NCBI GenBank assembly: GCA_019115165.1
Contig: DXEB01000017.1
Location: 1 to 64,000, forward strand
Length of the DNA stretch: 64,000 bases
Direction: 5' to 3'
Origin: Candidatus Anaerotignum merdipullorum
GTDB taxonomy: Bacteria; Bacillota; Clostridia; Lachnospirales; Anaerotignaceae
Notes under the pieces: model-generated
Databases searched by the model: none
What the model saw: the letters and a program-made list of their open reading frames with translations, nothing else
What the model was told of the DNA's origin: nothing
Made by a program: the position numbers and the translations under genes
Shown here: positions 7,904 to 27,152 of the stretch, piece by piece
Layout: each line of letters starts with the position of its first letter
How positions within the stretch are numbered: the first letter of the stretch is position 1

Positions 7904-8536
7904 TTATAATTTGAATTTAACATGCAGAACTTTACCAATGATTTGCAGGCGGTCGGCATCTTTGGCAGTAAATACCATAGGCGCATAAGCAGGGTTTTCT
8001 GCCTGAAGGATGAACAGACCGTCTTTTTTTAAGACGCGTTTGAGAGTTGCGGTATCATTGTCGATGATGACAACGGCAATATCACCGGATTCTACATCGG
8101 TTTGTTTACGGACGAAGACCAAATCATTGGGATAAATCCGAGCATTGATCATGCTGTCTCCCTGAACGCGGAGATAAAAATAGGAATGGCAGGGAGACAC
8201 TTCAGAAGTGTCTACGCTTTCATAGCCTTCGATGTTTTCGACGGCGAAAGCTGGGAGTCCTGCATGTACGGCACCTAATATAGGAATGCGCACGGAGTGA
8301 GAGGGAGAGAAGGTTTCCGCGGGCAGATAACCACAGGAAATCATGAGGTCTTCATAAGAAACTTGTGGACCGGCAATGGACTTGAGCAGATCTGGAGAAG
8401 GCGGACGATCTAGACGCAGATTTAGATATTTAGACAAATAGGTGCGATTAAAGCCGGTACGTTCAGCAAATTCTGTGGTAGTGCTGTCTCCCATTAGTTT
8501 TTGCAGTTGTTCTTTAAACAATACTTTTTGAAACAT
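7904..8536 (-). CDS. LexA/CI-like phage repressor (HTH + S24 self-cleaving peptidase domain)
   Basis: HTH FAERTGFNRTYLSKYLNLRLDRPPSPDLLKSIA; Ala-Gly cleavage site ILGAVHAGLP; catalytic Ser in VQGDSMINARI and Lys in TATLKRVLK. Start 8536 preceded by AAGGAGGC Shine-Dalgarno on the minus strand. Confidence 0.93.
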   Translation of the reverse strand: MFQKVLFKEQLQKLMGDSTTTEFAERTGFNRTYLSKYLNLRLDRPPSPDLLKSIAGPQVSYEDLMISCGYLPAETFSPSHSVRIPILGAVHAGLPAFAVENIEGYESVDTSEVSPCHSYFYLRVQGDSMINARIYPNDLVFVRKQTDVESGDIAVVIIDNDTATLKRVLKKDGLFILQAENPAYAPMVFTAKDADRLQIIGKVLHVKFKL

Positions 8537-8560
8537 ATACAAAGCCTCCTTCTTGTGTTT

Positions 8561-8589
8561 AGTATAGCAAAAAAAAGAAGAGCTGGCAA
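8561..8589 (-). promoter_or_regulatory. Sigma-A-type promoter for the repressor gene
   Basis: On the minus strand TTGCCA-N17-TATACT. Confidence 0.65.
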
Positions 8590-8608
8590 TGAAGAAATGT
8601 GAAAAAAA

Positions 8609-8637
8609 TTGACAATGAATGAAATTTATGATATGAT
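8609..8637 (+). promoter_or_regulatory. Sigma-A-type promoter for the rightward element operon
   Basis: TTGACA-N17-TATGAT; the ORF-track TTG start at 8609 is the -35 box. Confidence 0.8.
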
Positions 8638-8719
8638 AGCAAAACAAAGGAATCCCAAGATGGACAATGCACAGGATTCGGATTGGGGCAGAAGAGAAGA
8701 AAGGGAGAGGGGGAGTTCT

Positions 8720-9193
8720 ATGAATCAGATGGTACAACAAGGAGAGATAGCAGAGAGTTTGGGGCATAAGACGGCGAAAGCGGAACGAGAAAGGATGAAG
8801 CATCTGCTGTTGGAATGGGGTGGCAGCCTAGATATCTGTGAGAGAAAACAAGAAGAAATCCGCAAAATGATGCAGATGCAGGAAACATGCGCAGTGTTAT
8901 CGAAACAGGGCAAGCATGCAGAATTTCAGCGCATTTTAATGAGATATGAGGATGGTATTTTCTGTCTGCAAAAAGAAATACAGCAAATTCTGGAGATGAA
9001 AAAGCAAATGGATGAAGCCATTGCTGTATTGACACAAGAAGAGCAAGAATTGTTATTTTTGCGATATCAGAAAGGATATGGGTATGATCATATTGCATGG
9101 AAATTACATATGGGACGCTCCACGTGCTTTCGGATCCATGATAAGATTTTGCAAAAACTATTGGATTTGGAACAGAGGAAAAATTTTTGTTGA
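8720..9193 (+). CDS. Sigma-like phage late-gene activator (Xpf/ArpU/RinA-like)
   Basis: C-terminal LTQEEQELLFLRYQKGYGYDHIAWKLHMGRSTCFRIHDKILQKL resembles sigma region 4 of phage activators; ATG at 8720 preceded by a purine-rich SD. Confidence 0.7.
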   Translation: MNQMVQQGEIAESLGHKTAKAERERMKHLLLEWGGSLDICERKQEEIRKMMQMQETCAVLSKQGKHAEFQRILMRYEDGIFCLQKEIQQILEMKKQMDEAIAVLTQEEQELLFLRYQKGYGYDHIAWKLHMGRSTCFRIHDKILQKLLDLEQRKNFC

Positions 9194-9293
9194 AATCGTG
9201 AAAAAAATTAACAAAAATAAGATGGGACTTTTTGAGAGTGAGACTATGATAGGATCATTCTGCGGCCGACAAAAACAGGAAAGGGGGAGGAAC

Positions 9294-9677
9294 ATGGCAG
9301 ACGAAACGCTGACAGATCGGGAGGAAACCTTTTGCAGATGGTGCGAAAGTGGGATGACAGCCAAACAAGCGGCGGAGGCTGCCGGATATACCAAAAAGGG
9401 ATATGAAAAGCAATTACTGCAAAAGGAGAAGATTCAAAAACGGCTACAGCATAGTATGAGGCAGCAGACGCAGGAAAATAAAATCGCGCCTCGAGAAGAG
9501 ATACTGGCATTTTTGACGGAAACCATGCGAGGTGGCGAGGAAGAGGCAGATATTAAAACCAGAATGCGGGCAGCGGAGTTGTTGGGCAGAAGAAACGGCG
9601 TATTTACCACAGAAGGAGAGACACAATGTCGTGTGATTATTGTGGACGATATTGGAAAGGGGAAGGCTGCAACATGA
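9294..9677 (+). CDS. Phage terminase small subunit
   Basis: DRETFCRWCESGMTAKQAAEAAGYTKKGYEKQLLQKEKIQKRL...ETMRGGEEEADIKTRMRAAELLGRRNGVF; adjacent to TerL with ATGA overlap. Confidence 0.85.
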   Translation: MADETLTDREETFCRWCESGMTAKQAAEAAGYTKKGYEKQLLQKEKIQKRLQHSMRQQTQENKIAPREEILAFLTETMRGGEEEADIKTRMRAAELLGRRNGVFTTEGETQCRVIIVDDIGKGKAAT

Positions 9678-10918
9678 CAGAACGGAAAATTCTGCTCTCG
9701 TCTATCATTAGTCCGGCATTTTATGATATTCATCAAGACATCCTGTCTCACGGGCATGTACACTACTGGCTAAAGGGCGGAAGGGGCAGTGGAAAATCTT
9801 CTTTTGTGTCTGTGGAGCTGATACTAGGGATGATGGCAGATCCTCAGGCGCATGCGGTGGTGCTGCGAAAGGTAGCGGCAAATCTGAAAGACAGCGTATT
9901 TGAACAATTATGGTGGGCAATCCGCAGTTTGGGCGTGGAACAGGAATGGGAAAGCAAAACATATCCGATGGAAATGAAGTACAAAAAAAGCGGACAACGG
10001 ATTATTTTCAAAGGAGCAGACAGACCGAAAAAGATTAAATCTGCAAAGTTTCGCGATGGATATGTGAAATATATTTGGTACGAAGAGGTAGACGAGTTTG
10101 CCGGCATGGACGAGATTCGCACCATCAATCAAAGCCTGATGCGAGGCGGCAAGGACTTTGTTGTATTTTATTCCTTTAATCCGCCCAAAAGCCTGAAAAA
10201 CTGGGTCAATGGTGCAGTGTTGGAGCCTAGGGCAGATACCCTCGTACATCATAGTACCTATTTGACGATGCCAAAAGAATGGCTGGGTGAGCAATTCTTT
10301 TGGGAAGCAGCATATATGGAGCGCAGGCATACAGACAGTTATCGGCATGAGTATCTAGGAGAAGCCATTGGATGCGGCGGAGAAATTTTTTCCAATATTG
10401 TACTGCGACAGATTCCGGCGGAAGAAATGGCAGCGTTTGACCATATTGCGCGTGGATTGGACTGGGGATATGCAAGGGATCCCCTGCATTATACAGTGAA
10501 TCATTATGACAGCGCCAGAAGAAGGCTGTATATCTTTTATGAGCTGCACAAAGCGGGAATGAGCAACCGACTGTTGGCGGCAGAAATACAGAAAGAAAAT
10601 CCTGACGGCGAAACAGTGGTATGCGACAGTGCAGAACCCAAATCCATTGCGGAACTGAGAGAATATGGGATTGATGCCATTGGTGCAAAGAAAGGACCGG
10701 ATAGTGTAGGATACGGAATCAAATGGCTCCAGGATTTGGAAGAAATCGTCATTGATCCCATTCGTTGTCCGATGACGGCAAAGGAATTTACAGAGTACGC
10801 GCTGGAGGAAGATGGAAATGGCGGATGGAAGGCATATTTTCCGGATCGAGATAATCATGCCATTGATGCGGTTCGTTACAGCAGGGAGCAGGACATGCGT
10901 CCGATTCAGATTTGGTAG
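9674..10918 (+). CDS. Phage terminase large subunit (PBSX XtmB-like)
   Basis: Walker A-like LKGGRGSGKSSFVSVELILGMM; IWYEEVDEFAGMDEIRTINQSLMRGG; nuclease region GLDWGYARDPLHYTVNHYD and DRDNHAIDAVRYS. Confidence 0.95.
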   Translation: MTERKILLSSIISPAFYDIHQDILSHGHVHYWLKGGRGSGKSSFVSVELILGMMADPQAHAVVLRKVAANLKDSVFEQLWWAIRSLGVEQEWESKTYPMEMKYKKSGQRIIFKGADRPKKIKSAKFRDGYVKYIWYEEVDEFAGMDEIRTINQSLMRGGKDFVVFYSFNPPKSLKNWVNGAVLEPRADTLVHHSTYLTMPKEWLGEQFFWEAAYMERRHTDSYRHEYLGEAIGCGGEIFSNIVLRQIPAEEMAAFDHIARGLDWGYARDPLHYTVNHYDSARRRLYIFYELHKAGMSNRLLAAEIQKENPDGETVVCDSAEPKSIAELREYGIDAIGAKKGPDSVGYGIKWLQDLEEIVIDPIRCPMTAKEFTEYALEEDGNGGWKAYFPDRDNHAIDAVRYSREQDMRPIQIW

Positions 10919-12381
10919 AAAGGAGAAAGGCAGTGTATATATCAGAAATGGCGCTGTTAAAGGCGCGGCTGGAGGCAGAGGGTAAGCTGAGTCAAAGCAG
11001 GATACTGCAGGAGTTGTTACGGGAAGACGATCAGAGCGAACGAAAGGAAAAAATGCGGGAAGGTGAGCGGTATTACCGGTGCGATCATGATGTGCGAAAA
11101 AAGGATTTTCGTTCCCGCATGATTTCGGAAACAAAAAATGGTGCAGAGGAATATCGTTTGTTTCAGAATCCCAATCGCAGCAATCACCACAACGTGAATC
11201 CATTTCACCGTACATTGGTTGCGCAAAAAGCGGCGTATTTGGTGGGCAAAGAACCAACGGTGACGGTCAAGGGCAAAGAACAGGCATATTTTGAGGCGGA
11301 GTTAGCGGAATTCTGCAATGAGGAATGGAATCAGCTATTATATCGCTGGGTTACAGGGGCGTCTAACAAAGGCGTGGAATATTTGCATGTCTATTATGAC
11401 GAGAACGGCGTATTCCGTACTTGTTTGGTTCCGGCGGAAGAATTGATCGTATGCTATGATGCGGAACATCAGCAGGATATGACGGAGGTGATTCGTTACT
11501 ATGACATGAAGGTGTTAGAGGATGGAAAAGAGAAGATACGTCGGAAGGTAGAATGGTGGACAAAGGAAGATGTTACGTATTTTACGGAAAACAGTGATGG
11601 GGAATTTTTGCAGACGAAGCGGATGCCGCACTGGCTGATCACACAGGAAGAGGATGGTCAGGAAGTGGCACGGGAGGAACATCATTGGGGCAGGCTGCCA
11701 TTCATACCACTGCAAAATAATGCAGAAGAGACAACGGACTTGGAGTTGATCAAAGGGTTGGTGGATGCATACGATCTGCTGAGCAGTGAAGGAACGAACC
11801 AATTATTGGATCTGGTGGAATTATACTGGGTGATTCAAGGATATGGCGGCGAAGCGGCAGGAGCCATTTCCAAAAAGCTACAGATTAACAAAGCGGTACA
11901 AATCAGTGACAGCAGCGGGCATGTGGAGGCAAAGCAGGTATCTTTGCCGATGGAAAGCCGTATGAGTTGGATGAGAATGCTGCGCAAGGATATTTTTCAT
12001 TTTGGCATGGGTGTCGATACGGACAGTGAGGACTGGGGAAAGGCGCCAAGTGGGGTGGCACTCCAGTTCCAATATGCCATGTTTTATTTGAAAGTCAATG
12101 GAATGATGCCTGAGATTCGGCGAGCGATCAAGGAGGTGCTGCGCTTTGTAGCGGAGGACAAAAACCGCAGAGACGGCAGGGATCGAGACTGGAAGGCAAT
12201 TCAGGTTTTGCTCAATACCAGCGGTATTACTGATGATTTGGAAACGGTGCAGATGATTCGGGAATCTCAAGGGTTGATCAGCGAGAAAACATTGTTGGGA
12301 AAACATCCTTTTGTGGATGATGTGAACCATGAAATGCAGCAGCGCAGAGAGGAAAGAAAAGAAAAGGAGGCAACGACATGA
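10912..12381 (+). CDS. Phage portal protein (SPP1 gp6/Xkd-like)
   Basis: YRLFQNPNRSNHHNVNPFHRTLVAQKAAYLVGKEPTV...LLSSEGTNQLLDLVELYWVIQGY...EDWGKAPSGVALQFQYAMFYLK typical of portal proteins; true start may be GTG 10933 after AGGAG. Confidence 0.92.
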   Translation: MVERRKAVYISEMALLKARLEAEGKLSQSRILQELLREDDQSERKEKMREGERYYRCDHDVRKKDFRSRMISETKNGAEEYRLFQNPNRSNHHNVNPFHRTLVAQKAAYLVGKEPTVTVKGKEQAYFEAELAEFCNEEWNQLLYRWVTGASNKGVEYLHVYYDENGVFRTCLVPAEELIVCYDAEHQQDMTEVIRYYDMKVLEDGKEKIRRKVEWWTKEDVTYFTENSDGEFLQTKRMPHWLITQEEDGQEVAREEHHWGRLPFIPLQNNAEETTDLELIKGLVDAYDLLSSEGTNQLLDLVELYWVIQGYGGEAAGAISKKLQINKAVQISDSSGHVEAKQVSLPMESRMSWMRMLRKDIFHFGMGVDTDSEDWGKAPSGVALQFQYAMFYLKVNGMMPEIRRAIKEVLRFVAEDKNRRDGRDRDWKAIQVLLNTSGITDDLETVQMIRESQGLISEKTLLGKHPFVDDVNHEMQQRREERKEKEATT

Positions 12382-12815
12382 CACAGGAATGGATGCAAAA
12401 GTTGGGAATTCAAGATGAGGAAACAGCGCAAAAGGTGGAGCAGCTACTGGAGGCGCTGGAAGAGCGCAGCAGACTGCTGACGGAGAAGAATGCAGCGCTG
12501 GAAAAAGAAAAAACACTGGCAGAGGAAGCATTGCAGCAGGCGAAAAAAATCGGTGCGGTGGAAAAATTGATTCTGGAAGCAGGAGGAAAGAATGCAAAGG
12601 CGATTCTAGCATTGATTGATCTGGAGGAAGTGAAACTAGACGAGAAAGGAAATATTGAAGGATTAGATCTGGAAACCGTGAGAAAAGAAGCGCCGTACCT
12701 GTTTACAGAGAAAGAAGAAAAGACGAAAGGAACTGGATTTCAGGCAGCGTACAGCAGAAAAAAAGGAAAGGAAAGCGAAGTGGCGCAGACATTTCGAAAA
12801 GCATTGAGAAGATAA
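12378..12815 (+). CDS. Phage scaffolding protein (GP20-like coiled coil)
   Basis: Charged coiled coil followed by KIGAVEKLILEAGGKNAKAILALIDLEEVKLDEKGNIEGLDLE, located between portal and capsid. Confidence 0.8.
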   Translation: MTQEWMQKLGIQDEETAQKVEQLLEALEERSRLLTEKNAALEKEKTLAEEALQQAKKIGAVEKLILEAGGKNAKAILALIDLEEVKLDEKGNIEGLDLETVRKEAPYLFTEKEEKTKGTGFQAAYSRKKGKESEVAQTFRKALRR

Positions 12816-12828
12816 GGAGGAAAAGAAT

Positions 12829-13788
12829 ATGAGTATCAATACATTAGAATATGCAGCGGTATTTATGCAGGAACTGGACAGCCAGATGGTGGAATGCGCA
12901 ACCAGCGGCTGGATGGAGGACAATGCGGGACAAGCGCAGTATCACGGCGGCGCAGAGGTGAAAATTCCCAAGATGGAGCTGAGCGGACTGGGAAATTATG
13001 ACAGAGATAAGGGATTTGCCAGTGGCAGTGTGACGGTGAATTATGAAACCAAAAAGATGACACAGGACAGAGGGAGAACTTTTCAAGTAGATGCGATGGA
13101 CGTAGATGAAACAAATTTTGCCGCAGTTGCGGGAAATGTGATGGGAGAATTTCAGAGGAGTAAGGTGATTCCGGAAATTGATGCATATCGATACAGTACC
13201 ATTGCAGCTTTGGCAGAAACCAAACAAAAAACCCAAAAATATATTCCGGCAAAAGAAACCATTTGGGAAACATTGCTGGGAGATCTGACAGAAGTACGAG
13301 ATAAAGTGGGAGATGGCGTAGAGATTGTGATTACGATGTCGGCAAAAGTGGCAGGGATGCTGGATATTGCAAAAGGGAGCAATTATGCCATTGGAAGCGG
13401 TGAATTTACCCAAGGCAGTGCAACCATGAAGGTGCGGGAAATTGATGGTTGTCCGGTGATTCGCGTACCATCTGCCAGATTCCAGACCAAGTATGAATTT
13501 TATGACGGGGTTTCCAGTTCAAAAGAAGCGGGTGGATTTGTTGCAGCAGCAGATGCGAAAGACATGAACTGGATCATTGCGGTAAGACAAGCGCCCATTG
13601 CGGTATCCAAAACAGATGTGACGCGTATTTTTGATCCTATGACCAATCAAAATGCCAATGCGTGGAAAATTGATTACCGGAAATACCATGATTTATGGAT
13701 TACCGACCATGGGATGGAGGGCATTTTGGTCAGTGTGCAGGAAAAAGCGGGAACAGACAGTGGACAGGAAGAAGAAGGGATGTCCTGA
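12829..13788 (+). CDS. Major capsid protein
   Basis: Position after scaffold; AQYHGGAEVKIPKMELSGLGNYDRDKGFASGSVTVNYETKKMTQDRGRTFQVDAMDVDETNF resembles HK97-fold coat proteins of this phage type. Confidence 0.88.
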   Translation: MSINTLEYAAVFMQELDSQMVECATSGWMEDNAGQAQYHGGAEVKIPKMELSGLGNYDRDKGFASGSVTVNYETKKMTQDRGRTFQVDAMDVDETNFAAVAGNVMGEFQRSKVIPEIDAYRYSTIAALAETKQKTQKYIPAKETIWETLLGDLTEVRDKVGDGVEIVITMSAKVAGMLDIAKGSNYAIGSGEFTQGSATMKVREIDGCPVIRVPSARFQTKYEFYDGVSSSKEAGGFVAAADAKDMNWIIAVRQAPIAVSKTDVTRIFDPMTNQNANAWKIDYRKYHDLWITDHGMEGILVSVQEKAGTDSGQEEEGMS

Positions 13789-14096
13789 TGAATCTGATTT
13801 TGGAATCCATGAAAACACTGCGAGAAGGGGCGGATGACACCGCCCTTGCCTTCGCAGCAAGGCGCAGTGCAGAAATGGTATGTGCGTACTGCGGGATGAC
13901 GCAGGTGCCTAAGGAATTGGAAGGTGTTTGCGTACAGATTGGGTTAGCGCTGTATGATAGCATGCAAGAAGGTGGACTGCGTCAGATACAGGAAGGAAAC
14001 GTATCCGTTTCTTTTACAGAAGCAAGTACAGTTGGGACAGAGCTGATGAAAGAATATGCAGAGGAACTGAATCGATTTCGGTGCATGCAATGGTAA
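13788..14096 (+). CDS. Head-tail connector/adaptor protein
   Basis: Short alpha-helical protein directly after capsid (TGATG overlap), ILESMKTLREGADDTALAFAARRSAEMVCAYCGMTQVPKELE. Confidence 0.65.
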   Translation: MNLILESMKTLREGADDTALAFAARRSAEMVCAYCGMTQVPKELEGVCVQIGLALYDSMQEGGLRQIQEGNVSVSFTEASTVGTELMKEYAEELNRFRCMQW

Positions 14097-14112
14097 ATCG
14101 AAAGGGGAAGGT

Positions 14113-14478
14113 ATGAAGGGAGTATGGTTCAAGGCAAGGCGAGCCGTTGAGAGCGGTTTTTGGGATACGTGCGAGGTGACAGCGTTTTTGGAGGTACAGA
14201 CTGAATGGGGAGAAGTACGATGGGAGCCATCGCAGACAAAAGAAATGTGCTGCCGCTTGATCGACAGAGCGGAAGGCACGACACAGGAAGGGCTGATTCC
14301 TTATACTGCTTGGGAAGGCATTCTGTTATATCCCGCACAGGAGCAAATTGCAGCGGGAAGCCGTGTGACAGTAACGAAAGAAACGGGGGAGCGCAGGATG
14401 TTTTATACAACGGGAGAGACAAGTGCTTATCGGACGCATAAAGAGGCGGTATTAACCAGAAAATGCCCTTATGTATAA
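14113..14478 (+). CDS. Putative head-closure/minor capsid protein
   Basis: Conserved position between connector and tail terminator; no strong motif recognised. Confidence 0.5.
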   Translation: MKGVWFKARRAVESGFWDTCEVTAFLEVQTEWGEVRWEPSQTKEMCCRLIDRAEGTTQEGLIPYTAWEGILLYPAQEQIAAGSRVTVTKETGERRMFYTTGETSAYRTHKEAVLTRKCPYV

Positions 14479-14491
14479 GGAGGCGAAACAC

Positions 14492-14944
14492 ATGACGCTG
14501 GAGATGGCGGAACGGTTAAAGCAGGAAGTAATTCGGACGCTGAAAGAAGGATTTTCTCTGCCGATTTATGCAGAGAGGGTGCCGCAGCATACCAAACGCC
14601 CCTGTTTTTCGGTGACGGTTACCCAAGGAGAACAAAAGCGACTACTGGGCAGACGCAGAGCGGCAGAGGCAACGGTTGTGGTGACCTATACGGCAGCAGA
14701 AGACTGTGCGGCAAGAGAAGAGAGCCTGAAAACAGCAGATGCATTATATGAACGGTTATGGATCATCGGAAGTCAGGAGAGATTCGCGGCAGGGCAGATG
14801 CATCATGAGATGCGGGAGGACGGTATGATCTTTTATGCAACGTATGGATATCAAATCATACTGGAAGAAGAGGATGTCAAAATGGAGCGGCTGGAATACA
14901 ACGGCAGAAAGGTGGTTGGTTATGGAGAAAAAAACGAAATTTGA
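14492..14944 (+). CDS. Putative tail terminator (DUF6838-like)
   Basis: EVIRTLKEGFSLPIYAERVPQHTKRPCFSVTVTQGEQKRLLGRRRAAEATVVVTY...YATYGYQI resembles a Firmicute phage tail-terminator family; gene-order position fits. Confidence 0.65.
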   Translation: MTLEMAERLKQEVIRTLKEGFSLPIYAERVPQHTKRPCFSVTVTQGEQKRLLGRRRAAEATVVVTYTAAEDCAAREESLKTADALYERLWIIGSQERFAAGQMHHEMREDGMIFYATYGYQIILEEEDVKMERLEYNGRKVVGYGEKNEI

Positions 14945-15089
14945 AAAAATACAACTGGTAAACAGCAAAACACTGGGGTATCCTGCAGATCTATTGGAAG
15001 CTGTGCTGGAGGATGACATGCGCTATACCAAGGATGAAGCAAGAAAAAAAGTGGAAGCATACTTGTGCAAAGAAATGAAAGGAGCGTGA
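14922..15089 (+). CDS. Small phage protein of unknown function
   Basis: Intact 55-aa ORF overlapping the upstream gene, MEKKTKFEKIQLVNSKTLGYPADLLEAVLEDDMRYTKDEARKKVEAYLCKEMKGA; positional. Confidence 0.5.
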   Translation: MEKKTKFEKIQLVNSKTLGYPADLLEAVLEDDMRYTKDEARKKVEAYLCKEMKGA

Positions 15090-15093
15090 AAAT

Positions 15094-16386
15094 ATGGCAT
15101 TGGGCGGCGGCACATATCAGACACAGAACAAAGTATTGCCGGGTGCATATATCAATTTTGTATCCAGACCGAGAGCAATGGGAACGATGGGAGAAAGAGG
15201 AACGGTTTGCATCGGCATGGCACTGGATTGGGGTCAGAAGGAAATGATGACGGTGGAAGCGTCGGAATTTCAGACCAATGCGCTGGAACGATTCGGATAT
15301 GGATACAGTCATGAGAAGATGAAAAATATTAGGGAACTGTTTTTGGGTGCAAAGACAGTCAAACTCTTTCGTTTGAACGGAGGAACGGCTGCTTCAGCAA
15401 CCATTGGCAGTTTGACAGTGACAGCAAAATACGGTGGGAGCCGTGGAAATGCGATTCGAATGGCAGTGACACAGAATGTAGATGAAGCGGAAAAGTTTGA
15501 TGTAGCAACGTATCTGGATCTGGAGCAGGTGGATATACAGACTGTTGCGACGGCAGAGGAATTGCAGGAAAATGCATACGTGATATTCCAAGGAAGCGGC
15601 ACTTTGACGGCAACTGCGGCAACGCCACTGACTGGCGGCACAACGACAGAGGTGGACGGCAATGCATATACGGCGTTTTTGGCGGCGGCGGAAGCAGAGG
15701 ATTTCCAGGTGCTGGTGTATGACGGAACAGACGAGGTGACCAAAAAGTTGTTTGTAACCTTTACCAAGCGTTTGCGAGAGGAAGAAGGGGTGAAGTTTGT
15801 TACGGTATTGTACGATTATCCTCAGGCAGACTACGAAGGGGTCATCTCCGTTGCGACGGCGAAAGAGCTGGTTTATTGGACAGCCGGGATGGAAGCCGGA
15901 GCGGCGGTCAATGAAAGTCTGACCAATCGGAAATATGATGGAGAGTACGAAATTTCCGCAAAGGAGAGCAAAAGTAATTACATCAAAGGAATACAGGCGG
16001 GGAAATTCATGTTTTACAATGACGGAGAGGACGTGCGTGTACTGCGGGATATCAACAGTTTTACTTCTTTTGAAAGTTCGAAAAACAGTGATTTCTCTTC
16101 GAATCGCGTGATTCGGGTACTAGATGGAATTGCCAATGATGTCGCAAGGATTTTCAGTCAGTATTATTTGGGTAAGCGAAGCAATAACGCAGACGGCAGA
16201 AATTTGCTGAAAGCAGAAATGATTGCCTACCATGAACAACTGATGCAGATGGAAGCCATTGAAGGGTTTACAGCAGAAGATATTTCTGTACAGCAGGGAA
16301 CGGAAAAACAGGATGTTGTGGTATATGAAAGTGTAAAACCCACGGATGCGATGGAAAAACTGTATATGAAAGTAGAAGTGGTGTAA
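15094..16386 (+). CDS. Contractile tail sheath protein (XkdK-like)
   Basis: MALGGGTYQTQNKVLPGAYINFVSRPRAM...GSRGNAIRMAVTQNVDEAEKFDVATYLD...DINSFTSFESSKNSDFSSNRVIRVLDGIANDVARIF is diagnostic of XkdK-type sheaths. Confidence 0.96.
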   Translation: MALGGGTYQTQNKVLPGAYINFVSRPRAMGTMGERGTVCIGMALDWGQKEMMTVEASEFQTNALERFGYGYSHEKMKNIRELFLGAKTVKLFRLNGGTAASATIGSLTVTAKYGGSRGNAIRMAVTQNVDEAEKFDVATYLDLEQVDIQTVATAEELQENAYVIFQGSGTLTATAATPLTGGTTTEVDGNAYTAFLAAAEAEDFQVLVYDGTDEVTKKLFVTFTKRLREEEGVKFVTVLYDYPQADYEGVISVATAKELVYWTAGMEAGAAVNESLTNRKYDGEYEISAKESKSNYIKGIQAGKFMFYNDGEDVRVLRDINSFTSFESSKNSDFSSNRVIRVLDGIANDVARIFSQYYLGKRSNNADGRNLLKAEMIAYHEQLMQMEAIEGFTAEDISVQQGTEKQDVVVYESVKPTDAMEKLYMKVEVV

Positions 16387-16399
16387 AAGGAGGTAAGTG

Positions 16400-16861
16400 A
16401 TGGCATATTTGAGAGCAAAAGACACAGTAAATGGTGCATTAGGCACCTGTTATGCGCGGATCAATGGAGAAAGACATGAATTGATGCAGGTCAAGCAGGT
16501 TAGTGCGACAGTAAAAAAGACGAAGACAGAGATCCCCATTTTGGGGCTGACCGGAAAACAGCACAAAAGCGGCGGTTGGGAAGGCAGCGGTAAGATGACG
16601 ATATATTATGTATCCAGCTTATTTCGCAAGGTGATGCTGGAGTATATGAAAAACGGAGTGGATACATATTTTGAGCTGATGATTACCAATGAGGATCCGA
16701 CCGGTGAAACGGGCAGACAGACAGTGTTGCTCAAAGATGTGAATCTAGATGAGATGGTAATGGCAAAACTGGATGTAGACCAATTTGCGCTGGAAGAAGA
16801 AATGCATTTTACATTTGGCGACGTCGATTTACTGGATACGTTTGATGCGTTGACATATTAA
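16400..16861 (+). CDS. Tail tube protein (XkdM-like)
   Basis: DTVNGALGTCYARINGERHELMQVKQVSATVKKTKTEIPILGLTGKQHKSGGWEGSGKMTIYYVSSLFRKVMLEYMKNGVDTYFELMITNEDPTG. Confidence 0.95.
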   Translation: MAYLRAKDTVNGALGTCYARINGERHELMQVKQVSATVKKTKTEIPILGLTGKQHKSGGWEGSGKMTIYYVSSLFRKVMLEYMKNGVDTYFELMITNEDPTGETGRQTVLLKDVNLDEMVMAKLDVDQFALEEEMHFTFGDVDLLDTFDALTY

Positions 16862-16904
16862 GAAGACATATGGGAGGGATGGCGGGGAATAAGGAGGAAA
16901 GAAG

Positions 16905-17237
16905 ATGCAGCAGGCATTTTATCGGGAAACAGCAAAACCGTTTCGGGAAGGCACTTACAGCATTACACCAAGAATACAGCAAAATGGGACGGAAGTGTAC
17001 TGGAGAATACGTGCGATGAGTCAATTGGAGCACAAAGAAATTTGGCGACGCAGTCAGGAACAGCCCAAACGGTATGAAACGATGGTTTTGGCGGCATCGG
17101 TTTGTTTTCCGGACTTGAAACAGGCAGATTTGCAGGATCATTATGGCGCAATAGGGGCAGAACAATTATTGGAAAAGATGTTAACGGCGGGAGAATTTGC
17201 CGCATTGCGAGAAGCAGTGGAGGACATCAACCAATAG
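16905..17237 (+). CDS. Tail assembly chaperone-like protein, copy 1 (XkdN-like)
   Basis: C-terminal VCFPDLKQADLQDHYGAIGAEQLLEKMLTAGEFAALREAVEDIN parallels copy 2 at 18897 (VVFPDLKDPALLESYQAKDSVQVLQKMLTPAEYLRLEKAVRKLNGF); follows the tube gene. Confidence 0.8.
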   Translation: MQQAFYRETAKPFREGTYSITPRIQQNGTEVYWRIRAMSQLEHKEIWRRSQEQPKRYETMVLAASVCFPDLKQADLQDHYGAIGAEQLLEKMLTAGEFAALREAVEDINQ

Positions 17238-17247
17238 GAGGGGGAAG

Positions 17248-17907
17248 ATGTATCGATTTTATTTGAAGCAGGGAGAACAGCAGTTTTTATTTCCGGTCAC
17301 GCCGTCGGAAGTAACCACAAAAATGGGCAACTGTAATCAAACGGTGCAGATTTATCAAATGGGGGAGGTTAATTTGCTGCGGAACAGAAAGCTGGAAGAG
17401 ATTCAGTTTCGGGTGTTGCTGCCCGGGCGGCAGTATCCGTTTGTTCAGGCAGAAGAAGGATTTCGGGAACCGGTGTATTATTTACAGCAAATGAAGGCGT
17501 TTCAGGAGGCAAAAAAACCAGTACAGCTGATCGTATTTCGCAGACTGGCAGACGGGACTCAGATATTTTGCAGCAATACGGAGATGGGTCTGGAAGCGTA
17601 TACGGTGACAGAAAAAGGCGGAGAACAGGGAGACTTTTGGTTAGAGCTTGTACTGCGGGAATATCGGCAGATGCAAAGCATTGCATATCGTCCGATGACA
17701 CAAAATGGGACAACGGTGTTACAGAAACAACAGACACAAAGACCTGCAAAAGAACCGGCAAAGACGTATACGGTGCAAAAAGGGGATAATTTATGGAATA
17801 TTGCAAAAAAAGAATTGGGAGATGGAACGAAATTTCAGGAATTGGCGCAGAAAAACGGTATTGCCAATCCGTCTCTCATTTATCCCGGACAGATATTGCA
17901 GCTCTAA
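17248..17907 (+). CDS. LysM tail protein (XkdP-like)
   Basis: C-terminal LysM KTYTVQKGDNLWNIAKKELGDGTKFQELAQKNGIANPSLIYPGQILQL; N-terminal FLFPVTPSEVTTKMGNCNQTVQIYQMGEVNLLRNRKLEEIQF. Confidence 0.9.
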   Translation: MYRFYLKQGEQQFLFPVTPSEVTTKMGNCNQTVQIYQMGEVNLLRNRKLEEIQFRVLLPGRQYPFVQAEEGFREPVYYLQQMKAFQEAKKPVQLIVFRRLADGTQIFCSNTEMGLEAYTVTEKGGEQGDFWLELVLREYRQMQSIAYRPMTQNGTTVLQKQQTQRPAKEPAKTYTVQKGDNLWNIAKKELGDGTKFQELAQKNGIANPSLIYPGQILQL

Positions 17908-17919
17908 AGGAGGCGGAAG

Positions 17920-18900
17920 ATGGAGATACGGCTTTTACTCAGCCACAACGGTACGGTATATGATGTATCCAACGTTGTGGTGGATGGAATCCGGCTGACA
18001 CACAGCATTCGGATGGAGGCAGGCAGTCTGCGCTTTTCGGTGGTGCGGGATGGTGTGATGCAGTTTGTGGAAGGAGATCCGCTGCAGCTTTATGTGGATG
18101 GGATGTTACGGTTTTCCGGTTGGGTGATGACAAAAGAGCGGACTTCGGCGCAGATCATAACGGTGACGGCGTATGATATGTTGTTTTATTTGGCAAAAAA
18201 CAGAGATACTTACGTATACTGGGATAAAACAGCCACAGAAGTGGTAAGAATGATTGCAGAAAACGCAGGGCTGCCGGTTGGAGTGATGACAGATACCAAA
18301 TGGAAAATACCGCAGCGCATTGAAGAGGGGCAGACGCTGCTGGACATGATACAGACGGCATTGACGCTGACGGCACAAGCGACGGGGCGGGAGTATTTTT
18401 TTTATGATGCTGGCGGGCGGTTGACCCTGCGGGAGCGACAGGAATTGATTGCAGCGGCAGCCCTGCGATGCGACGGCGGCATTGCCGAATATACGTATCG
18501 GACGGATATCAGCAAGGATACATACAATACCGTCAAATTATACCAGGCGGGCAGAAAGGAAACGGAGCACTTGGCATGGCAGGCGGAGCAGGCGGACAAA
18601 GTACAGGAATGGGGCAGGCTGCAATATTATGCCCATATGCCGATCACATTGCAGGAAGGACAGCTCAAAGAGATGGCGGAAGCGGTGTTGCGGGAGAAAT
18701 GCCGTGTGCAAAAGACGTTAACGGTGGAGAACATCAATGGAGATATTTATCTGACGGCGGGGCAGTCGGTATATTTGGAGATACAGGATTTAGCGGAAAT
18801 TGGCATTGCGCAGATGACTTTGATTGAGGCGTGTACGCATGTTTTTCAGGACGGCGGGCATCGGATGTATCTGGAAATGAGAGTGGAGGAATCAACATGA
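17920..18900 (+). CDS. Baseplate hub protein (XkdQ-like)
   Basis: GDPLQLYVDGMLRFSGWVMTKERTSAQIITVTAYDMLFYLAKNRDTYVYWDKTATEVVRMIAENAGLPVG...DISKDTYNTVKLYQ. Confidence 0.9.
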   Translation: MEIRLLLSHNGTVYDVSNVVVDGIRLTHSIRMEAGSLRFSVVRDGVMQFVEGDPLQLYVDGMLRFSGWVMTKERTSAQIITVTAYDMLFYLAKNRDTYVYWDKTATEVVRMIAENAGLPVGVMTDTKWKIPQRIEEGQTLLDMIQTALTLTAQATGREYFFYDAGGRLTLRERQELIAAAALRCDGGIAEYTYRTDISKDTYNTVKLYQAGRKETEHLAWQAEQADKVQEWGRLQYYAHMPITLQEGQLKEMAEAVLREKCRVQKTLTVENINGDIYLTAGQSVYLEIQDLAEIGIAQMTLIEACTHVFQDGGHRMYLEMRVEEST

Positions 18901-19256
18901 AGACATTAGAGGCATTTTTTCGGGAGGGCAGTCAGTTACCTCCAAATGAGAAAACTGTGATTTCTGAGCGTTTCCAATGGGAAGGACAAGCTTTGGAATG
19001 GGAAATTCGGGCAGTACGGGAAGCGGAACTACGAGCGACAGGGTCAGATGATATGGAGCAGGTTTGCGCATTGGCGGTGGTGTTTCCGGATTTGAAGGAT
19101 CCGGCATTGCTGGAGAGCTATCAGGCGAAAGACAGCGTCCAAGTATTACAAAAAATGCTGACGCCGGCGGAGTATTTGCGGTTAGAAAAAGCCGTGAGAA
19201 AATTAAATGGTTTTGCAGAAAGAAAAGCGAAACTGAAAGAAATGGCAAAAAACTGA
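18897..19256 (+). CDS. Tail assembly chaperone, copy 2 (0-frame product of a predicted -1 frameshift pair)
   Basis: ATGA overlap with the XkdQ-like gene; ends GCA AAA AAC TGA. See predicted frameshift extension to 19417. Confidence 0.85.
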   Translation: MKTLEAFFREGSQLPPNEKTVISERFQWEGQALEWEIRAVREAELRATGSDDMEQVCALAVVFPDLKDPALLESYQAKDSVQVLQKMLTPAEYLRLEKAVRKLNGFAERKAKLKEMAKN

Positions 19257-19417
19257 TTCGGGAGGGGATAGACGAGGCGGATTATGCCTGCTATGCCCTC
19301 CGGAAATATGGGATTCGACCAAAAGAATGGATAGAAATGGATATGGCAGAGAGGATGTTTTTCTGTGCCGTTGTGGAATTGGAGATAGAATACCGTCAGC
19401 GGCAATCAGAAAAATGA
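18897..19417 (+). CDS. Predicted -1 programmed frameshift fusion of tail assembly chaperone (gpG-T-like)
   Basis: Slippery heptamer A_AAA_AAC at 19247-19253 immediately before the 0-frame TGA (19254-19256); the -1 frame continues KKLIREGIDEADYACYALRKYGIRPKEWIEMDMAERMFFCAVVELEIEYRQRQSEK to 19417. Confidence 0.8.
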
Positions 19418-19428
19418 GGGGAAAGAGT

Positions 19429-20127
19429 ATGGAGAAGATTGCATTTTTAACAGCATGGATACAGATGTGGATGCAGCAGGAAGAATCATGGCGCAGTATA
19501 TTGGAAGAACACTGGTTTTGGGATTTGCAGCAAAAGGATATTGCCGAAGGGCTGGAGCATATACCGCAGGAAAGAAGTGAAGAGTGGATCAGTTTAGAGT
19601 TGTCAGAAAACCAACGGGAATCCATGCAAAAGTATCAGCGTTTGACCTGGTGGCAGAATCGAGAAGCAAAACGAGAAGCGATGAAAACAGAGAATGGTAT
19701 GCCGATGGGGTTTGTCATGGAGCAGGGAATGTCAGAACAAGACAGCCGACGTAAGGCGGACTCGTTTTTGGAAGGACGAGGCATACCGGATGCACAAAGG
19801 GGAGCAGAACAACATACAGGTATGGCAAATCGGATGACATGGCAGGCATGGGAGAACACAGGGATACAGCCATTGGTACGGGAAAAGCAAGAAGGCATAT
19901 CGGACTTCTGGTTTGTTGGCGGGGATGCAGGAACAGAGTTCGCCAATGTAATGCATCAATGGCAGAACGGAATGGGGCAAAGCCTGGGTGGGCAAAGTGT
20001 TTCGATTGAGATCGGACAGGTCAAAGAAACAGCAGATGTGGACAAAATCATAGCAGCATTGACAGCGAAGCTGCGGGAAGCGCATATGATCAGCGCAAAG
20101 AAAGCCAAGGAGGGAGCATCATGGTAG
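19429..20127 (+). CDS. Short protein in the tape-measure position (putative minimal tape measure)
   Basis: Located directly after the frameshifting chaperone; C-terminal QVKETADVDKIIAALTAKLREAHMI resembles tape-measure C-termini; only ~232 aa. Confidence 0.5.
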   Translation: MEKIAFLTAWIQMWMQQEESWRSILEEHWFWDLQQKDIAEGLEHIPQERSEEWISLELSENQRESMQKYQRLTWWQNREAKREAMKTENGMPMGFVMEQGMSEQDSRRKADSFLEGRGIPDAQRGAEQHTGMANRMTWQAWENTGIQPLVREKQEGISDFWFVGGDAGTEFANVMHQWQNGMGQSLGGQSVSIEIGQVKETADVDKIIAALTAKLREAHMISAKKAKEGASW

Positions 20128-20459
20128 AAGTAATTAGACAGATCGCATTGGATGCTTTGGATCGGGAAAGTTTATCCGATTATGTTGTCGGTTTTGTAAC
20201 AAGTGCGGAGCCATTGACGATTCAAATAGAAAACGGACCAACATTGACAGCGAGATTTTTGATTCTTTCCGAGCAAGTGACAGAACAGGAAGAGACGGGG
20301 AAAATCAGAACATGGACGGAAACAGAAGGGGATCGATGGTCGTTTTATCGCATGATCCGTGAAAAAGGATTGCAAGAGGGAGAGCGGGTGATTCTGGCAA
20401 AGGCTGCCGGAGGACAGCAGTATATGGTGTTGGATCGGGTGAAAGGAGGAGGCGTATGA
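20121..20459 (+). CDS. XkdR-like protein (DUF2577)
   Basis: MVEVIRQIALDALDRESLSDYVVGFVTSAEPLTIQIENGPTLTARFLILSEQV; position before XkdS. Confidence 0.85.
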   Translation: MVEVIRQIALDALDRESLSDYVVGFVTSAEPLTIQIENGPTLTARFLILSEQVTEQEETGKIRTWTETEGDRWSFYRMIREKGLQEGERVILAKAAGGQQYMVLDRVKGGGV

Positions 20460-20860
20460 TTCCGGAAGGAAAGATAGAAACAGCGGATTTACAAGAGGAA
20501 ATGCCGTCTTTGACATATCGGATGTCTCCACAGAAGCAGGAGGTCAGAGGGACGCTGGATGGATTGGATGCCGTCCGACAGGCGATTGAAAAAATACTGC
20601 AGACGGAACGGTATCGTTATGTGATTTACGACTGGAATTATGGTGTGGAATTCGAAGATTTGTTCGGCAAGCCAGTCAGCTATGTGATACCGGAATTGGA
20701 GCGAAGGATTACAGAGGCGCTGTTGACGGATGACAGAATTGAGCAGGTGACGGATTTTTCGTTTGCAGAGGAGAAGAATGAAGTGACGGTGCGGTTTTGC
20801 GTTTTTACCACACAGGGAGAGATGCAAATGGAAAGGACGGTGAAACTGGGAAATGTATGA
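20456..20860 (+). CDS. XkdS-like baseplate protein (DUF2634, gp25-like)
   Basis: GTLDGLDAVRQAIEKILQTERYRYVIYDWNYGVEFEDLFGKPVSYVIPELERRITEALLTDDRIEQVTDFSF. Confidence 0.93.
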   Translation: MIPEGKIETADLQEEMPSLTYRMSPQKQEVRGTLDGLDAVRQAIEKILQTERYRYVIYDWNYGVEFEDLFGKPVSYVIPELERRITEALLTDDRIEQVTDFSFAEEKNEVTVRFCVFTTQGEMQMERTVKLGNV

Positions 20861-21923
20861 GAGCTATGAAGCGTTGATGGAAAGAAAGCTTGCGATGACA
20901 CAAGACAAGCGGGATCGTCGTCAGGGAAGTGTCATTTTTGATGCAATGGCACCCAATGCGGCGGAAACGGCTGCGTTTTATGCAGATTTGACTATGCTGG
21001 AAGACAGGACGTTTGCGGATACTGCGACGGGAGAGGATTTGACCAGGAGATGTATGGAGCGGGGGATTTTTCGCAAAGAGGCAATCAAAGCGACTTTTTA
21101 CGGAACTTTTACCGATACGGAAGGAGAACCCTATGAGATAGAGGCAGATACCAGATTTTACATGGAGCCCTATTACTACAGGGTATTATTTCAGGAGGAA
21201 GACGGCAGATATGTGCTGGAATGCGAAACGCCGGGAGAGGACGGCAACAGTTATTTAGGGGCGCTGCTGCCATTGGAGCATTTAGAAGGATTGGCGGAAG
21301 CGACTCTATCAGAACTGCGCACGGACGGTGAGGATGAAGAAAGCGATGAAATGCTGAGAAAGCGATATATGGAAAGTTTTTCGGCAGATGCATTTGGCGG
21401 AAATGTGGCGGATTACAAACAGAAAGTCAGTGCGTTGCAAAACGTGGGCGGTGTAAAGATATATCCGGTTTGGAACGGCGGTGGAACGGTAAAAGTTGTA
21501 ATCATCGATCAAGGCTGGAAGACGCCGACATTGGTGGAACTGCAGGCGCTTCAAGAGGAAATTGATCCGCAGCAGCGAGGGGAAGGCTATGGTTTGGCAC
21601 CGATTGGGCATCGTGTGACAGTAGCTGGTGTAACGGAAAAAATATGCCAGATTTCTATGGAAATTACTTGGAAAACAGATGCGGATGCGGAGAGAGGAAA
21701 AGCAGAGATACAGGAAAAAATTGCACAATATTTTTTACAGTTGCGTCAGGCATGGGCGGAATCAGAGCATCTGATTGTGAGAATCAGTTATCTGGAATCC
21801 GCAGCCCTATCTGCGGCAGATGTTTTGGATGTACAAAATTGCACCATCAATGAAACGGCGGCAAATTTGCAGTTAGGCGCGGACGAAATTCCGGTATTAG
21901 GGGAGATTGAGGTGGCAGTATGA
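20853..21923 (+). CDS. Baseplate J-like protein (XkdT-like)
   Basis: DKRQGSVIFDAMAPNAAETAAFYADL...GEDGNSYLGALLPLEHLEGLAEATLSELRTDGEDEESDEMLRKRYMESFSADAFGGNVADYKQKVSALQNVGGVKIYPVWNGGGTVKVVIID. Confidence 0.95.
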   Translation: MYESYEALMERKLAMTQDKRDRRQGSVIFDAMAPNAAETAAFYADLTMLEDRTFADTATGEDLTRRCMERGIFRKEAIKATFYGTFTDTEGEPYEIEADTRFYMEPYYYRVLFQEEDGRYVLECETPGEDGNSYLGALLPLEHLEGLAEATLSELRTDGEDEESDEMLRKRYMESFSADAFGGNVADYKQKVSALQNVGGVKIYPVWNGGGTVKVVIIDQGWKTPTLVELQALQEEIDPQQRGEGYGLAPIGHRVTVAGVTEKICQISMEITWKTDADAERGKAEIQEKIAQYFLQLRQAWAESEHLIVRISYLESAALSAADVLDVQNCTINETAANLQLGADEIPVLGEIEVAV

Positions 21924-22486
21924 TGACAGAGCGGTACATGCAGTATTTGCCGGCAACCGTGTCGGAGTATACAGAATTTCAGCGATTAGGTGAAATCGAA
22001 GGCGTGATTTTGGAAGAAGAGACACAGGCAAAAACACAGTTGGAAGCAGATCAATGGATCCAAACTGCAAGCAGAGCAGGGTTGCTGCGACGGGCAGACA
22101 TGATGGGGATTGCTGTGTCAGAATCGGATGATACGGAGTGGCTGCGGGAAACGATTCTGTCTTATTGGAACAGTCATAGACCCTATACGTATTTTATGCT
22201 GTGTGATTGGTTGGATGGTTTCTGCGGCGCAGAAAATTATCGTGCAAAGTTGGCATATGATGCATATCGTTTGACGATTGTGCTGGAATTAAATCAAAAG
22301 GAGAAAAAAGAGCAAATCTTACGGCATTGGAGATTATTGATTCCAGCAAATATTGTGCTGGAGGTGCAGCTGAATACCAATACATATGGAAAGGTTGGTC
22401 AGTTGCGGCATCGAACCTTGCAGGAGAATCAATGGACTTATGGAGAAATTCCATTTGTGGATTTACGGGAATATTTGGCGGAATAA
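21920..22486 (+). CDS. XkdU-like baseplate protein (DUF2313)
   Basis: MTERYMQYLPATVSEYTEFQRLGEIEGVILEEETQAKTQLEADQWIQTASRAGLLRRADMMGIAVSESDDTEWLRETIL; last structural gene. Confidence 0.9.
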   Translation: MMTERYMQYLPATVSEYTEFQRLGEIEGVILEEETQAKTQLEADQWIQTASRAGLLRRADMMGIAVSESDDTEWLRETILSYWNSHRPYTYFMLCDWLDGFCGAENYRAKLAYDAYRLTIVLELNQKEKKEQILRHWRLLIPANIVLEVQLNTNTYGKVGQLRHRTLQENQWTYGEIPFVDLREYLAE

Positions 22487-26798: not shown

Positions 26799-27152
26799 GG
26801 GGATGTAATGGTTTCGACGGGAGTCTTGAACGTAGGAATAGCCATCCGCAGTCCGGTGAACTGCGTCAACAAGCCGGAAACTTTTTAAAAAGAAACGACA
26901 ACAATAAATTAGCATACGCTGCCTAATTGCGGCAGCTGTCAACCCTCGGATTCCTGCCGCCGAGGTGTTTGGCATCGACTTGGCGGGGCACTTTTTCGCT
27001 TAAGCTTTGCGGCGGAAAAAGAAAGATGAAGCTACTGAGGGGTACAGCCTGTCAATCGGCGGTACGCTAAGGGAATGACAAAAGATTGACTGTGATGGGA
27101 GAGGTTCTTACCGATGGGTTTTCGGACAGGGGTTCGACTCCCCTCATCTCCA
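26799..27152 (+). ncRNA. ssrA: tmRNA (ssrA)
   Basis: 5' GGGGATGTAATGGTTTCGACGGG, 3' GGTTCGACTCCCCTCATCTCCA, internal tag ORF ...NDNNKLAYAA* (AACGACAACAATAAATTAGCATACGCTGCCTAA, 26894-26926), directly after smpB. Confidence 0.96.

Follow-up and report, generated by a model that had tools for sequence, protein, structure and literature searches.

Does the slippery heptamer that closes a tail assembly chaperone gene in the genome of Candidatus Anaerotignum merdipullorum belong to a genuine -1 programmed frameshift signal, and what kind of element carries it? In the window (the whole stretch of 64,000 nucleotides that was analysed), the 0-frame of this gene, here called TAC2, ends in ATG GCA AAA AAC TGA, with the TGA at 19254-19256 and A_AAA_AAC directly 5' of it. 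The sequence and coordinates of this site given in a preliminary description were exact, and the peptide reported there was recovered from the -1 frame, which is open from 19247 to a stop at 19415-19417. The features at the end of the gene are as follows.

18897..19256, + strand: TAC2, an XkdN-type tail assembly chaperone with a 0-frame product of 119 aa (PF08890, phrog_389, 3KLU)
19247..19253, + strand: the A_AAA_AAC slippery heptamer
19247..19417, + strand: the -1 frame extension (T-like segment), 54 residues past the heptamer (phrog_33439, codon-position changes, pN/pS)
19261..19301, + strand: a stem-loop with outer arms 19261-19271 and 19291-19301 and an inner stem pairing 19275-19279 with 19285-19289

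The chaperone identity of the 0-frame gene, likewise proposed in the preliminary description, is borne out by matches of the product to PF08890 Phage_TAC_5 (XkdN-like tail assembly chaperone, 2.8e-19) and phrog_389 (2.1e-24), and by a match to YqbN (PDB 3KLU) at 9e-4. AAAAAAC itself occurs 40 times in the window, 21 times on the + strand and 19 times on the - strand, and only the copy at 19247-19253 is immediately followed by a stop codon. The heptamer and the stem-loop at the end of TAC2 very probably constitute a -1 programmed ribosomal frameshift signal of the gpG/gpGT type; the frameshift reading with which the locus was first presented is supported by the conserved phase of the heptamer, the conserved -1 protein and the stem-loop at the usual spacing.

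Conservation of the heptamer in homologous loci had been named at the outset as a check on this reading. Relatives of the TAC2 0-frame protein, searched for with that protein alone, were present in 45 of 98 genomes, and a slippery heptamer in the -1 phase was found in all 30 TAC loci read (23 A_AAA_AAC, 6 A_AAA_AAG and 1 A_AAA_AAA), followed in each case by a recognisable extension of the form KK(L/A/G/M)IxEG... At one locus (L007) the 0-frame stop lies five codons farther downstream, and the heptamer is unmoved and in the same phase. A second set of 80 loci was collected via the tail-tube protein, which avoids selection on the chaperone, and was supplemented with five phage regions; the two sets overlap within the Anaerotignaceae family itself. 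In the second set, 78 XkdN-type TAC genes carry the site and the -1 extension (AAC in 69, AAG in 5 and AAA in 4), with the heptamer immediately before the stop in 67 of them. The A-site codon is AAC in 69 of the 78, versus 0.35 in the remainder of the same genes, and the third base of the preceding codon is always A, versus 0.30 in the same genes. The TAC genes of phiC2, phiCDKH02, Osiris and PBP180 carry the site as well. Thus, its occurrence in distant prophages and phages indicates that the frameshift feature is widespread in XkdN-type chaperones and not specific to the window.

Two variants were also observed. In a clade of Clostridia prophage chaperones (L087, L088, L105 and L125), A_AAA_AAA located 31 nt before the stop replaces A_AAA_AAC at the stop. 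Streptococcus phage EJ-1 (L134 5481-6077) has a single longer chaperone ORF of 198 aa, possibly a natural fused form, and no slippery site was found in its TAC region.

Another important question is whether the -1 extension is itself a conserved protein segment. It matches phrog_33439 (function unknown) at 5.6e-27, and within the genus of the window, the changes at codon positions 1, 2 and 3 number 94, 22 and 232, respectively, with a pN/pS of 0.19-0.21. Purifying selection acts on the extension. The preliminary description had made the frameshift reading depend on conservation of the downstream ORF in the -1 register; the extension is conserved, and the reading survives.

The signal has a second half that was absent from the preliminary description, namely, the stem-loop, which is separated from the heptamer by a spacer of 7 nt (19254-19260). 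Its GGAGGG, starting at 19261, pairs with CCCTCC ending at 19301, and the outer stem of the window is interrupted by a single G-G mismatch (19267 with 19295). A fold with the same arms was obtained in 30 of 30 loci found with the TAC2 protein. When the peptide was recoded synonymously, none of 500 recodings reached the stability of the stem-loop in the window, and the mean z across the 30 loci is -4.3. In the 27 gap-free loci, 87% of the cells are paired, as opposed to 40-52% after sliding of the 3' arm, and covariation exceeds that of all 500 shuffles; since the shuffles ignore relatedness, the recoding test and the slid-arm control were given more weight than the shuffle control. A compensatory pair, GGAAGG/CCTTCC, is present in the stem of locus L029. 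In the distant prophages the stem is weaker, with z below -2 in 34 and above -2 in 24 of 58, and the best pairing register is shifted by one (0.71 paired versus 0.84), so the claim of covariation is confined to the 27 gap-free loci of alignment A1.

Could the -1 segment be produced by some other route? It might be a separate small protein translated by re-initiation after the TGA, with GGAGGGG as a Shine-Dalgarno sequence, and almost every family locus does have a strong Shine-Dalgarno-like GGAGGG 7 nt beyond the heptamer. However, the -1 frame of the window contains no ATG, GTG or TTG before codon 31, whose ATG at 19337 is the first in that frame, as expected from the initial view that the ORF has no good independent start, and the alignment contains no conserved start codon behind GGAGGG. 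The same GGAGGG is an arm of the conserved stem, and re-initiation would not account for the skewed synonymous codons at the heptamer; we regard this route as very improbable. Transcriptional slippage, in which mRNAs joining the two frames would arise on the run of six A within the heptamer, is improbable to the same degree. Recoding by slippage on runs of A is known, but a run of six is short for slippage by RNA polymerase; moreover, the base 3' of the run does not lengthen it but is held to C or G at almost every locus, and the stem-loop is conserved at ribosomal spacing.

Least credible of all is the view that the two frames are the debris of a decayed prophage gene, formerly continuous and split by an indel. 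The surrounding cluster is remnant-like in that it is without integration and lysis genes, the element is absent in some relatives, and EJ-1 has one longer uninterrupted ORF at this position. Against these points, the two frames, the site and the hairpin have all been kept in different genera as well as in unrelated prophages, and the pN/pS values of the element genes range from 0.07 to 0.49, most being comparable with that of the neighbouring rnr (0.21-0.28). The element genes are under purifying selection. A working particle would need a finely tuned translational signal that persists from genus to genus, a dying prophage would not, and the programmed frameshift signal thereby supports the maintenance of a contractile phage-like particle by these gut anaerobes.

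How would such a signal act? Most ribosomes would terminate at the TGA at 19254 and release the 119-aa TAC2; the stem-loop, 7 nt past the heptamer, would stall a minority, and these would slip by -1 on A_AAA_AAC and add 54 residues to yield a TAC2-T fusion. In lambda, gpG forms a coat on the tape measure, tube subunits are brought in by the T part, and the ratio is set (PMC5009743). By analogy, TAC2 would coat the tape-measure protein, the T segment would recruit tail-tube subunits, and the ratio of TAC2 to TAC2-T would set tail assembly. We infer slippage in vivo and its rate, as well as the roles of TAC2 and TAC2-T. In another phage chaperone cluster, shifting amounts to 6% and 7% in two genes (PMC3711429). 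In E. coli, A_AAA_AAC is reported to shift far less readily than A_AAA_AAG (PMC5009743), and it may be because of this weakness of the site that a strong stem-loop has been kept.

The mechanism itself is textbook knowledge, and the larger interest, held with moderate confidence, lies in the inherited element that contains it. The element and two further genes considered below are as follows.

7904..22486, S24 repressor on the - strand and the remaining genes on the + strand: head and contractile-tail element of about 14 kb (ORFs and family matches)
16905..17237, + strand: TAC1, an unshifted paralogue of TAC2 (39% identity to TAC2, PF08890 3.3e-17, separate tree group)
19429..20127, + strand: short tape-measure candidate of 232 aa (position, phrog_28264)

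The order of genes on the + strand is regulator, terminase, portal, scaffold, capsid, connectors, sheath and tube, followed by TAC1, a LysM protein, the hub, TAC2, the tape-measure candidate and xkdR/S/T/U-like genes; the family matches include a sigma/ArpU-like regulator, both terminase subunits, an SPP1-type portal and a YqbQ-like hub. Among the ORFs and family matches within about 7.9-22.5 kb, no integrase or other integration genes and no replication, lysis or fibre genes were seen. Named among the relatives are Anaerotignum lactatifermentans DSM 14214, which carries the same cluster, and Chakrabartyella piscis.

Is the element inherited with its hosts or repeatedly acquired? In the genus of the window and in other Anaerotignaceae genera, the cluster is flanked by a LysM gene and by secG-rnr. 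In three genomes (G003, G050 and G044) these flanks are adjacent, with the element absent between them, and in others a single flank is shared, on the rnr side (G057 and G034) or on the LysM side (G042 and G029); G037, with its short contigs, was left out of the flank-linkage comparison. The distances of TerL and RNase R are correlated (Mantel r 0.89, 0/2000 permutations), and most groups are common to the TerL and RNase R trees. As the fixed-site TerL copies do not form one clade in a quick TerL tree (3 changes), the case for vertical inheritance is built on the distance correlation, the shared flanks and the similar groupings, according to which the element appears to have been inherited vertically with its hosts in Anaerotignaceae. 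Other prophages in Anaerotignaceae, whose TerL shares 64-67% identity with that of the window, were also encountered (G015:C22, G018:C16 and G042:C1:2363757), some of them in genomes alongside a fixed-site copy. Elsewhere in the window, a tmRNA gene (26799-27152) encoding the tag DNNKLAYAA directly follows smpB.

The cluster contains two XkdN-type chaperones, of which only one is shifted. A slippery heptamer is carried by 18 of 18 TAC2 genes and 0 of 18 TAC1 genes, and no slippery site was found near the stop of any of the 18 TAC1 genes. In a tree of 106 TACs, which is drawn from a short alignment and has many unresolved forks, the 18 TAC2 cluster together with support, and the 18 TAC1 fall in a different group that also holds one lone family TAC. 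Such separate groups indicate that the duplication is older than the split of the sampled genera. TAC1 would supply extra unfused chaperone, and the combination of one shifted and one unshifted chaperone is a variant of the known mechanism. The natural pair, with the shift in one member only, could be used to investigate the importance of the chaperone ratio. In the literature searched, mostly outside subscription papers, we found no description of duplicated chaperones or of the Anaerotignum element.

The 232-aa gene downstream of TAC2 is a putative tape measure by virtue of its position, and its sole match, to phrog_28264 (unknown function), covers the C-terminal third. Its length is 195-241 aa in most family loci, although the assembly that gives 195 aa seems to contain frame errors, and one genus has 314-430 aa; the corresponding gene in other prophages commonly encodes 400-985 aa. 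If the candidate is truly the tape measure, a very short tail is implied, of roughly 35 nm by the rule of thumb of about 0.15 nm per aa.

These data suggest that the element is probably a domesticated PBSX-like or gene-transfer-agent-like particle. A more specific picture, which we offer tentatively and hold to be somewhat less probable than not, is that Anaerotignaceae possess a vertically inherited contractile-tailed gene transfer agent (GTA) with a very short tail, in which the copies of a duplicated frameshifting chaperone divide the work: TAC1 would be made in the unfused form only, and TAC2, beside the tape measure, would frameshift and supply the fusion.

How does this locus compare with known systems? 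It shares with lambda gpG/gpGT and its dsDNA phage counterparts (PMC5009743) a -1 X_XXY_YYZ heptamer near the chaperone stop, a -1 frame extension and a gene position before that of the tape measure, but it differs in its XkdN-type chaperone sequence family, the A_AAA_AAC heptamer, the clear conserved downstream stem-loop and the second, unshifted paralogue in the cluster. The chaperones of phiC2, phiCDKH02, Osiris and PBP180 are closer, belonging to the same Pfam family, with A_AAA_AAC directly before the stop and a similar -1 extension, although a single chaperone ORF was found per region there, as opposed to two here.

The PBSX-like defective phages, of which PBP180 is a sequenced example, have XkdN/XkdM/YqbQ-type contractile-tail genes together with head and terminase genes, as does the element studied here, whereas in the latter, the LysM protein and hub precede TAC2 and the tape-measure candidate, and this candidate is much shorter. 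PBSX is treated as GTA-like and packages 13.4-kb chromosomal fragments, and GTA-like packaging has been described as active in further gut Bacillota, among them Faecalibacterium with its podovirus-like FpGTA (PMC12946183). With gene transfer agents, the element has in common a compact head-tail cluster that is kept across related hosts and contains no phage replication genes. Its sheath and tube genes set it apart, in a comparison by description, from FpGTA, described as podovirus-like (PMC12946183), and from the non-contractile GTA tails described in PMC9662315.
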